Part shown: piece by piece, positions 2,558-5,135 of the stretch
Layout of the letters: each line of letters starts with the position of its first letter
Position numbering within the stretch: position 1 is the stretch's first letter
Assembly: GCA_017421885.1 (NCBI GenBank)
Contig: JAFOHJ010000198.1
Location: 1-5,135, forward strand
Direction: 5' to 3'
Source: Clostridia bacterium
GTDB lineage: Bacteria; Bacillota_A; Clostridia; Oscillospirales; Butyricicoccaceae
Length of the DNA stretch: 5,135 nt
Made by a program: the position numbers and the translations under genes
The notes under the pieces: generated by a model
Told to the model about the DNA's origin: nothing
Databases searched by the model: none
The model's input: only the letters and a program-made list of their open reading frames with translations

Positions 2558-4336
2558 ATGCTTTTATCAGCAGAACACATTTCCATAAACTACGGCATGC
2601 GCCAGCTTGTCGACGATGTTAATTTCTATCTCAGTGAAGGGGATAAGACGGGCATCATCGGCATCAACGGAACGGGTAAGTCTACCTTCCTCAGGGTGCT
2701 TGCTGGAGAGACTGAGGCCGACGGAGGCAGCGTTACACACAACCCCAATGTTCAGATCAGCTTCCTGCCTCAGAATCCCGTCATGAACGACGAGGCTACT
2801 GTCCTTGAGCAGGTGTTCCTGCACTTCCCGTCAGAGTTCCGCGAGCTCAACGAATACGAGGCCAAGACCATGCTGACAAGGCTGGGCATAACCGATTTTG
2901 AACAGAAGGTGGGCACGCTCTCGGGCGGACAGCGTAAGAGGGTAGCCCTTGCGGCGGCTCTTATCCATCCGGCCGACATTCTTATCCTCGATGAGCCCAC
3001 CAACCACCTTGATGCCGAAATGACGGCATGGCTCGAGAATCATCTGCGTCAGTTCAAGGGCGGCATAATCATGGTCACCCACGATCGTTATTTTCTCGAG
3101 CGAGTTGTCAACCACATCACCGAGCTCAGCCGCGGCAAGCTCTATCATTACGAGGCAAACTATTCGCGATATCTCGAACTCAAAGAGCAGCGCGCCGAAA
3201 TGGCCGAGGCCAGCGAGCGCAAGCGCCAGTCGATACTCAGAGTCGAGCGTGAGTGGATCATGCGCGGATGCCGTGCGCGAACCACCAAGTCCAAGGAGAG
3301 GATCGCAAGGTATGAAGAGCTGCTGGGCAGAGAGGCTCCCGAAAAGGACGAGACGGTTCAGATGGCGGCGGCATCTTCGAGGCTGGGCAAAAAGATAATC
3401 GAGCTTAAGAATGTGTCGAAGGCCTTTGACGGCAGGACGGTCATAAAAGATTTTTCGTATAATCTTCTGAGGGGCGACCGAATAGGCGTTGTAGGCCGAA
3501 ACGGCGCAGGCAAATCGACCCTCCTTAAGATGATCGCAGGTTCGCTTCTTCCCGATTCGGGCGAAGCCGACATCGGAGTGACCGTAAAGATAGGCCATTT
3601 CAGCCAGGAGGGCCGTGAGCTCGACCTCAACATGAGAGTGTTCGATTTTATCCACAGTATAGCAGAGGAGACCCACACCGATGAGGGCACCTTCTCGGCA
3701 AAGCAGATGATGGAGCGATTCCTGTTCCCCAGCGAGATGCAGTCGGTGCCCATAGGCAGGCTGTCGGGCGGCGAAAGGCGCAGGCTTTATCTGCTCAGTG
3801 TGCTTATGGAGGCGCCCAACGTCCTCCTGCTGGACGAGCCGACCAACGACCTTGACATCACAACGCTGTCGATCCTCGAAGACTATCTCGACAGCTTCCC
3901 CGGCCCCATAATCACCGTATCTCACGATAGATTCTTCCTCGACAAGATGGCCGAGAGCATCTTTGAAGTCACGGGAGAGGGCGATGTACGCCGCTACACC
4001 GGCAACTGGAGCGACTGGGCATCGAAGAAGAGGGAAGAGGCTGCGCCCCAGAAGTCCGAAAGGGCCAAAGATGCACAGCAGAAGCCTGTGCGCGAGCAGA
4101 AGCTGAGGTTTTCTTATAAAGAGGCCCGCGAGTTTGACATGATCGAGGGTGAGATCATGGAGCTTGAGGAGAAGATCGAGAGCTGCAAGGCCGAGCAGAT
4201 GGCCTGCAGCAGCGATTTTGTGAAGCTTCAGGAGCTTCAGGCGAAGCAGGAAGAGCTGGAAGAGCAGCTCATGGCGAAAGAAGAGCGGTGGCTCTATCTC
4301 ACCGAGCTTAAGGAGAAGATAGACGCACAGCAGTAA
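2558..4336 (+). CDS. uup: Uup-type ABC-F family ATPase
   Basis: A 592-residue soluble protein with two ATP-binding cassettes and no membrane domain, the ABC-F layout. Cassette 1 has Walker A GINGTGKST (35-43), Q72, signature LSGGQ (121-125), Walker B ILILDEP with E146, and H175. Cassette 2 has GRNGAGKST (313-321), Q350, LSGGE (402-406), LLLDEP with E427, and H456. The inter-domain linker (~205-260) carries EWIMRGCRARTTKSKERIARYEEL-type sequence characteristic of the Uup branch. Residues ~515-592 form a charged helical coiled coil beginning LRFSYKEAREF, as in the Uup DNA-binding C-terminal domain. ABC-F proteins act on ribosomes; Uup is also linked to transposon excision and replication-fork processing in E. 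coli. All catalytic residues are present, so it should be active. GGAG (2548-2551) lies 6 nt before ATG. The 26-bp gap from the amidohydrolase, without terminator or clear promoter, suggests co-transcription. A close ABC-F paralogue of other name is possible. Confidence 0.9.
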   Translation: MLLSAEHISINYGMRQLVDDVNFYLSEGDKTGIIGINGTGKSTFLRVLAGETEADGGSVTHNPNVQISFLPQNPVMNDEATVLEQVFLHFPSEFRELNEYEAKTMLTRLGITDFEQKVGTLSGGQRKRVALAAALIHPADILILDEPTNHLDAEMTAWLENHLRQFKGGIIMVTHDRYFLERVVNHITELSRGKLYHYEANYSRYLELKEQRAEMAEASERKRQSILRVEREWIMRGCRARTTKSKERIARYEELLGREAPEKDETVQMAAASSRLGKKIIELKNVSKAFDGRTVIKDFSYNLLRGDRIGVVGRNGAGKSTLLKMIAGSLLPDSGEADIGVTVKIGHFSQEGRELDLNMRVFDFIHSIAEETHTDEGTFSAKQMMERFLFPSEMQSVPIGRLSGGERRRLYLLSVLMEAPNVLLLDEPTNDLDITTLSILEDYLDSFPGPIITVSHDRFFLDKMAESIFEVTGEGDVRRYTGNWSDWASKKREEAAPQKSERAKDAQQKPVREQKLRFSYKEAREFDMIEGEIMELEEKIESCKAEQMACSSDFVKLQELQAKQEELEEQLMAKEERWLYLTELKEKIDAQQ

Positions 4337-4337
4337 T

Positions 4338-4371
4338 AATACCCCTGTGGGTTTTCCACAGGGGTATTTTT
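4338..4371 (+). terminator. Strong intrinsic terminator after the ABC-F gene
   Basis: A perfect 13-bp stem (4338-4350 with 4356-4368, core ACCCCTGTGG) around the loop GTTTT is followed by a T run to 4371. It starts one base after the ABC-F stop codon and ends the operon. It also marks the border to the AT-rich DNA on the right. Confidence 0.93.
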
Positions 4372-4388
4372 CTGAGCTTTTTGTATTC

Positions 4389-4417
4389 TTGTCTTTTATA
4401 TCAGAAAATGATACACT
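4389..4417 (+). promoter_or_regulatory. Putative promoter of the Mrr-like nuclease gene
   Basis: TTGTCT (4389-4394) and TACACT (4412-4417) are 17 nt apart, and a TGA just before the -10 makes it TGn-extended. Both boxes match consensus at four of six positions. As a strong terminator lies just upstream, the gene needs its own promoter, and this is the best candidate in the 78-bp gap. Confidence 0.45.
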
Positions 4418-4436
4418 ATACATAAAACTTAGACAT

Positions 4437-4444
4437 AGAAGTGG
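4437..4444 (+). promoter_or_regulatory. Weak ribosome binding site deciding the nuclease start
   Basis: AGAAGTGG lies 5 nt before the ATG at 4450 and is a poor but plausible Shine-Dalgarno sequence. The in-frame GTG at 4441 lies inside it and has no better site upstream. The next ATG upstream (4408) is followed by an in-frame TAA at 4423, so it cannot be the start. Confidence 0.45.
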
Positions 4445-4449
4445 ACCAT

Positions 4450-5135
4450 ATGATACCAATAAAAGAGATTTCAGATTATATAAAAGCAGGAAAAAAGATT
4501 CAAGCAGTTAAACTTGTTCGCGACTATACAGGTTTTAGTTTGAAAGATGCAAAAGACTATGTTGATGAGCTTGAATGTACAATGAAAAAAGCTTCTGTTA
4601 AGCCTAAACAGGTACACTATCTAAGCGGTGTTTCTGCTATTGATGGTATGGAAGGACATAAGTTCGAGTATTTCTGTGCAGATTTGCTCCGGAAAGTTGG
4701 CTTTTCAGAAGTAACAGTTACTCCTGGTTCTGGTGATCAGGGCGTAGACGTTTTGGCTGTAAAAGATGATATCAAGTACGCAATTCAGTGCAAAAACTAT
4801 GCAAGTGCATTAAGCAATACACCAGTACAAGAGGTTTCTGCAGGTAAACAGTTCTATGGTTGCCACGTTGGTGTCGTAATGACAAACTCTACTTTTACAC
4901 CGGGAGCAATTCAGCTTGCAGCTGCTACAAATGTACTCTTATGGGACAGAAGAAAGCTGGATGAACTTATTGCAAAAGCCGGAGGACTTGAGAACCTAGG
5001 TATATATTCAGATTATACTGATTTTGATAGTGATTACGAACTCGAAGATGAATTATATGACAATATTGAAGATGACTTTGTCACAGACAAGAATAGTGCG
5101 ATCGAGAATAGAGTAATCGAGAATAGAGCAATAAT
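4450..5135 (+). CDS. Mrr-type restriction endonuclease with N-terminal L7/L12-like domain (open at right edge)
   Basis: The reading frame stays open from ATG 4450 to the window end: 228 complete codons and no stop. Residues ~7-41 (KKIQAVKLVRDYTGFSLKDAKDYV core, 15-38) strongly resemble the helical core of the ribosomal protein L7/L12 C-terminal domain. Residues ~67-175 form an Mrr-type catalytic domain: GHKFEYFCADLLRKVGF (69-85) with E73, GDQGVDV with D100, and IQCKNY with Q113 and K115. This is the complete D...QxK nuclease signature, and a typical 'VGVVMTNSTFTPGA' strand-helix follows (140-153). Residues 186-213 are very acidic, then IENRV/IENRA repeats begin. Mrr enzymes are cytoplasmic nucleases, often type IV, cutting modified DNA; the target here is unknown. 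No methyltransferase is visible nearby. Composition is AT-richer than the genes to the left, suggesting transfer. The nuclease domain is confident; the function of the N-terminal domain is not. Confidence 0.85.
   Translation, partial: MIPIKEISDYIKAGKKIQAVKLVRDYTGFSLKDAKDYVDELECTMKKASVKPKQVHYLSGVSAIDGMEGHKFEYFCADLLRKVGFSEVTVTPGSGDQGVDVLAVKDDIKYAIQCKNYASALSNTPVQEVSAGKQFYGCHVGVVMTNSTFTPGAIQLAAATNVLLWDRRKLDELIAKAGGLENLGIYSDYTDFDSDYELEDELYDNIEDDFVTDKNSAIENRVIENRAI
5086..5130 (+). repeat. In-frame 15-bp tandem repeat in the nuclease gene
   Basis: Two adjacent 15-bp units, ATCGAGAATAGAGTA (5101-5115) and ATCGAGAATAGAGCA (5116-5130), differ at one base and encode IENRV and IENRA. A degenerate preceding unit (5086-5100) matches the first at 9 of 15 positions. 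The unit length is a multiple of three, so copy changes would keep the frame. The array may continue beyond the window, although the last five bases (ATAAT) already depart from the unit. Confidence 0.75.

Follow-up and report, generated by a model that had tools for sequence, protein, structure and literature searches.

An L12-like module on an Mrr-type nuclease of a gut bacterium is more likely a swappable docking part than a true ribosomal domain

The window analysed here, a whole stretch of 5,135 nucleotides of contig JAFOHJ010000198.1 from a Clostridia bacterium (assembly GCA_017421885.1), ends within a gene for an Mrr-type nuclease, which carries at its N-terminus a short piece resembling the factor-binding part of the C-terminal domain of ribosomal protein bL12 (L7/L12). 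This L12-like piece on a gut-bacterium nuclease is more likely a swappable docking part than a true ribosomal domain. We read the protein as a stand-alone Mrr-type nuclease held at the membrane with a logic like that of the anti-phage nuclease SNIPE, the L12-type hairpin being an interchangeable contact module; the probability of this reading is put at about 0.5. The domain content, the invariant catalytic columns, the variable partners and the hairpin match were computed here. As the relatives look like membrane proteins, the most likely role differs from that proposed from the sequence alone in an initial annotation, which named contact with the translation machinery first among several possible roles.

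The reading frame begins with the ATG at 4450 and is open up to 5133, the window end. No stop occurs at 4974, where the initial annotation had placed the end of the gene. The closest protein among the matches listed, P0001 with 327 residues, shares 96% identity with the window copy across 89% of the query, and the length of close relatives is mostly about 320–335 residues. The features of the gene and its immediate surroundings are as follows.

4450..5133, plus strand: 5′ part of the nuclease gene, 228 residues visible, running past the window end
4459..4485, plus strand: front helix of the module (residues 4–12), predicted, outside the bL12 match
4495..4530, plus strand: first hairpin helix (residues 16–27), equivalent to bL12 α4 by sequence and model, holding K21 and R24
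4540..4593, plus strand: second hairpin helix (residues 31–48), equivalent to bL12 α5 by sequence and model, holding K35
4639..4971, plus strand: Mrr_cat nuclease domain (residues 64–174) by Pfam
5002..5133, plus strand: acidic linker, which in relatives leads into predicted membrane helices, here beyond the window
4388..5087, plus strand: leader and coding stretch common to the genome locus L002 (blastn at E 1e-10, 87.3% identity)
4338..4368, plus strand: terminator-like hairpin with a 13-bp stem, 3′ of the upstream ABC-F gene, which it parts from the nuclease gene

The nuclease domain looks intact. Mrr_cat (PF04471) is matched over profile positions 1–115 of 115 with E 2.1e-29, the conserved D and QxK catalytic features of Mrr nucleases are present, and D100, Q113 and K115 stand in invariant columns of an alignment of 121 proteins. 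The N-terminal domain of E. coli Mrr is a winged helix. As the initial annotation had held, the module here is a different one: no Mrr_N winged-helix family is found among the six Pfam matches, and the L12-like module stands in its place. The nuclease profiles of PADLOC match the core as well (ZorD, 1e-20; PDC-S02, 8.6e-14). ZorD of the Zorya system combines an SWI2/SNF2 helicase with an Mrr-like nuclease, of which only the nuclease end is matched here (profile positions 935–1062 of 1071). The predicted model comprises helices 4–12, 16–27 and 31–48, the nuclease core and long C-terminal helices; with this model Foldseek gave MspJI (E 8.6e-5), AF1548 and AspBHI as the best rows and Hjc at E 0.013. 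Database records label the relatives simply as restriction endonuclease.

The resemblance of the module to bL12 is, judged by sequence, genuine. Ribosomal_L12 (PF00542) matches residues 14–49 with E 1.4e-7 and 32.2 bits (cut-off 25.9). The match is partial, covering 36 of the 67 profile positions (10–45). Both profile searches suggested initially, against PF00542 and PF04471, gave matches, and an L7/L12-like stretch does precede the nuclease. The gapless alignment of residues 16–39 to E. coli L7/L12 with 12/24 identities is likewise confirmed by a count made by eye. A profile built from 47 bL12 frames, which were picked by length and exclusion of named others rather than curated (L082, L090, L143 and L144 were dropped), scores the real module at 32.6 bits and the whole protein at 29.1; 10,000 shuffles of the module's 54 residues (9,437 of them scored) reached at most 16.5 bits. 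When a profile of 25 modules (A2) was run against the PDB sequences, 18 bL12-type chains ranked first (best E 2e-6), and hhalign of the module profile with bL12 gave E 1.5e-10 over 40 columns at 38% identity. No N-terminal part of bL12 was matched in the nuclease protein by the Pfam and NCBIfam scans. NF005269 (PRK06771) matches residues 5–41, i.e. front helix and hairpin, at profile positions 57–93 of 97; its score of 36.2 lies below the cut-off of 90, so this is a match of the module only. Two PHROG families without assigned function overlap the same stretch.

The fold around the hairpin is predicted to be different from that of bL12. The C-terminal domain of bL12 is an α/β fold with a three-stranded sheet. 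AlphaFold2 gives helices 4–12, 16–27 and 31–48 both for the whole of P0001 and for the 54-residue window module, and neither model has a strand in residues 1–48; the block means of the predicted local distance difference test are 88–97 for residues 1–40 and 78–83 for residues 41–50. Helices two and three are taken by us to correspond to α4 and α5 of bL12, the sheet and α6 being missing and a front helix being added. The initial annotation spoke of the L7/L12 C-terminal core and proposed structure prediction as a check. The helix-loop-helix, which is the factor-binding hairpin, is indeed shared and is returned by the models (helices 16–27 and 31–48), but in them it sits among three helices without strands, and the complete α/β domain of L7/L12 is not predicted. 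The structural-neighbour listings for the module were taken to the best 50 rows each. The sequences also differ consistently: Ala replaces the Val of bL12 at position 68 in 44/44 Mrr-linked and 13/13 other modules, whereas Val is found in all 35 bL12 rows covering that column, and position 86 is mostly Tyr in the modules and Leu in bL12. The consistent replacement of Val by Ala suggests that the non-bL12 modules form a separate line of their own. In view of this difference and of the all-helical prediction, the module appears to be an L12-type α4–α5 hairpin within a three-helix unit rather than an L7/L12 domain.

In the nuclease family the core is constant and the partners vary. The homologue set consists of 121 proteins, the best 120 of 1,756 together with P0121. 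Mrr_cat is matched in every one of them, while zinc ribbons, TM2, bPH_3, FtsK_gamma and others occur in a few each. The architecture recurs among Mrr proteins, as the survey proposed in the initial annotation shows: Ribosomal_L12 is matched in 27/121 homologues, and a more sensitive module profile finds the module in 42/121. A membrane segment is predicted in 40 of these 42 (behind the nuclease in 26, in front of it in 14) and in 99/121 homologues overall. P0001 has three predicted segments (234–252, 257–275 and 299–317) following a linker with 17 D/E and 3 K/R in 42 residues, and in P0040, P0045 and P0046 the module separates the membrane segment from the nuclease. Membrane anchoring of the window copy is what we infer from these relatives. 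Among L001 and the 80 genome loci used out of 193 (E 1) the module was found in L002 only, and it was found in 0/24 viral loci.

Some members of the family deserve a separate mention. P0059 is listed with an FtsK gamma domain beside the Mrr nuclease, and in one homologue the FtsK_gamma match reaches E 5.9e-14; such a domain might direct the enzyme to the FtsK loading motif. P0047, P0048, P0062, P0071, P0093 and P0103 have in common, by eye, about 130 C-terminal residues behind the nuclease, and no convincing Pfam match was obtained in the C-terminal region of P0048. On a viral contig (L148:4804-7597) two adjacent genes each encode, by eye, a hydrophobic front, a long middle part and an Mrr nuclease.

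A similar organization is described for SNIPE, a membrane-bound GIY-YIG nuclease that cuts phage DNA during injection; its homologues keep the nuclease and swap membrane segments, PH-like (pleckstrin homology) and other parts (PMC13190303). The present group shares with SNIPE the conserved nuclease and variable parts including PH-like ones, and hydropathy predicts a membrane segment in most of its members. It differs in having Mrr instead of GIY-YIG (neither GIY-YIG nor DUF4041 is among the six Pfam matches) and, in this subgroup, in an anchor behind the nuclease. As the group seems to repeat the SNIPE logic with an Mrr nuclease, the L12-like module may be read as an interchangeable contact part. 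The protein would then be an Mrr-type DNA nuclease, encoded by a lone gene and tethered by C-terminal membrane helices on the cytoplasmic side of the membrane. Its front module would consist of three helices, the second and third forming the L12-type α4–α5 hairpin. Around a constant nuclease core the members exchange membrane segments, zinc ribbons, PH-like domains and the L12-like module. Foreign DNA close to the membrane would most likely be its target, as it is for SNIPE, with the L12-like module offering a protein-contact surface that would position or gate the enzyme. For the window copy, then, the membrane location, the DNA cutting, the defence role and a partner of the hairpin are expectations of this scheme. 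L12/ClpS domain insertions behind the vWA domain of vWA-MoxR conflict systems in Bacteroidetes (PMC7159879) likewise show an L12-type domain in an accessory role, within what is proposed to be a conflict system; no nuclease fusion appears in the passages that describe them. These insertions may be regarded as a precedent for the use of an L12-type domain, not for its fusion to Mrr.

The setting agrees with the transfer of a lone gene, as is suggested by its low G+C content compared with the upstream genes and by its different neighbours in L002. The G+C content is 37.9% (27.6% at third codon positions), while the three upstream genes have 48.7–55.1%. The blastn match to L002, a 17-kb locus (L082 is the same place), begins 62 bases 5′ of the nuclease ATG. 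No window gene upstream of the nuclease matched L002 in the same search (E 1e-10), and in L002 the nuclease gene with its 62-base leader sits among other neighbours, whose names are our own reading of their sequences.

Several observations weigh against a membrane-held defence nuclease. The 121 homologues are the most similar of the 1,756, and hence the shares given above are biased towards this protein's kind. Membrane segments were called by simple hydropathy (window of 19 residues, mean at least 1.6) and not with a trained predictor. The membrane part of the window gene lies beyond the window, and the last window residues differ from P0001. The L002 copy of the gene has a G+C content of 40.4% against 42.9% for the locus, which is a small contrast. 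Finally, no evident defence partner gene was found by PADLOC among the ten neighbouring frames of L002; the one match there, an ABC (ATP-binding cassette) ATPase matching part of mad3 (E 6.2e-22), is probably a transporter component, since a permease adjoins.

The distribution of the module outside this nuclease bears on the alternatives. In L002-family genomes the module profile matches 133/148 at E 0.001 or better, with a single match in 129, as a rule in a bL12-sized open frame (read in the fetched loci only), and in a scan of the phylum 45/398 genomes reach E 3e-8 or better. The carriers other than bL12 and the L002 gene itself, whose architectures were partly judged by eye, are in the phylum scan small membrane-segment proteins that end in the module (L113–L117, L120, L121, L126), L118 with several membrane segments and L119, a zinc-ribbon protein; the L002-family scan adds L086, also a zinc-ribbon protein, and L142 with two modules. 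A reading that we find rather doubtful sees in the hairpin a general helical element for contact or dimerisation, which shares descent with bL12 or has converged on it, has no link to translation, and pairs copies of the protein or touches a membrane partner. Its recurrence at the tail of small membrane-segment proteins, after zinc ribbons and in tandem (L113–L121, L126, L086, L142) agrees with this, as does the Ala that marks a line of its own, but such a module by itself leaves unexplained the strong keeping of K84, and of K70 in the other modules. In L142:2823-3896 the two L12-like modules lie at the C-terminus, PF00542 being matched in two stretches (E 2.3e-10).

The basic surface of the hairpin is the part that could speak for translation. 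The contact positions are K70, R73, K84, V66 and I69 in E. coli numbering, and K21, R24 and K35 are equated with K70, R73 and K84 on the basis of the gapless alignment. Of the 44 Mrr-linked modules 21 were kept after dereplication at 60% and 12 at 50%. In the set of 21, K/R is found at positions 70, 73 and 84 in 15, 16 and 18 modules, leaving 6, 5 and 3 without a basic residue, and at position 65 in 18; in the set of 12 each of the three carries K/R in 9 modules. Among other dereplicated modules (9 in number, aligned without four rows, namely L119, L086 and two of L142) the counts are 9/9, 7/9 and 9/9, and in the bL12 frames 47/47 each. The Mrr-linked modules are less strict at position 66 (entropy 2.87, with a charged residue in 5/21). 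By entropy among 27 module positions K84 ranks 5th, R73 12th and K70 16th. The surface thus seems mostly kept but looser than in bL12, with K84 alone standing out in the Mrr-linked set. The initial claim that the contact positions are kept therefore stands for the basic residues in most modules, but position 66 is relaxed across the Mrr-linked set, and K70 and R73 are only middling by entropy. Such a surface would be compatible with factor binding but is no proof of it.

On this evidence we consider it improbable that the hairpin serves, as in bL12, as a binding site for translational GTPases (EF-Tu, EF-G, IF2 or RF3), through which the translation machinery would dock or gate the nuclease at the membrane. 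What the module has in common with bL12 is the factor-binding site: helices 4 and 5 are described as a highly conserved, positively charged site contacting IF2, EF-Tu, EF-G and RF3 (PMC6753160), and a cryo-EM (electron cryomicroscopy) fit also has α4 and α5 in contact with RF3 (PMC3677378). Comparison with bL12 shows the same hairpin with most of its basic GTPase-contact positions, but on a scaffold without predicted β strands or α6, with an extra front helix and without the bL12 N-terminal part. The neighbours were surveyed at five carrier loci with 10 frames named, three of the five loci sharing the same neighbours. P450, ArsR and major facilitator superfamily (MFS) genes accompany the module gene in L169, and L170 and L171 share neighbours; plasmid replication and partition genes lie near that in L172. 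The surroundings of L173 hold a two-component pair, an IS3 transposase and smpB, encoding the SsrA-binding protein of trans-translation, the sole translation-related gene found around the five carriers. The distance between smpB and the module gene is about 3.5 kb, with the IS3 transposase in between. This is one hint towards translation, but a single distant case makes no link. The tie to translation is not supported as initially stated because of the predicted non-bL12 fold, the presence of the hairpin on small membrane and zinc-ribbon proteins, the distance of smpB, the relaxed V66 and the middling entropy ranks of R73 and K70.

The stretch L173:4260-8514 itself, in which a small membrane-segment protein bearing the L12-like module lies together with the IS3 transposase and smpB, is perhaps an island beside trans-translation genes.

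Slightly harder still to credit is a bolder version, in which the GTPase-catching hairpin of the ribosomal stalk has moved onto a new three-helix scaffold of membrane-bound proteins, where it would serve to hold EF-Tu, EF-G or some other translational GTPase or to sense it, and an attack on translation or a phage takeover would release the membrane nuclease. If the hairpin still binds translation factors, a DNA nuclease would be linked to translation, and we know of no example of such a sensing route. It would also give a testable function to the L12-like modules of many small proteins lacking an assigned role. Even if it does not, what emerges is a set of Mrr nucleases of modular build that look membrane-anchored and are comparable in logic to SNIPE. 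Very improbable is a small nucleic-acid-binding role of the basic hairpin, for which a positively charged helix-turn-helix in front of a nuclease and weak helix-turn-helix model matches of two other modules (L113, L114) might speak, as D/E are also well kept in the Mrr-linked modules at positions 82 (18/21), 88 (19/21) and 91 (15/20) and the module occurs on proteins without a nuclease.

Three direct repeats of 15 bases, all in frame, lie at the extreme end of the window (5090-5134), in the part that no longer agrees with P0001; the linker may be expanding by repeats. The remaining genes of the window, one of them a fragment on the other strand, are ordinary neighbours.

2558-4336: ABC-F ATPase
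1743-2531: creatininase-like amidohydrolase
410-1618: MFS transporter
3-269, other strand: fragment resembling cNMP-binding (cyclic nucleotide monophosphate) proteins, E 1.5e-5, just under the cut-off

A simple terminator scan of the window listed no terminators, the hairpin at 4338..4368 included. The folding energy of this hairpin is -23 kcal/mol with a z value of -5.5, and 0/200 shuffles were equally good.
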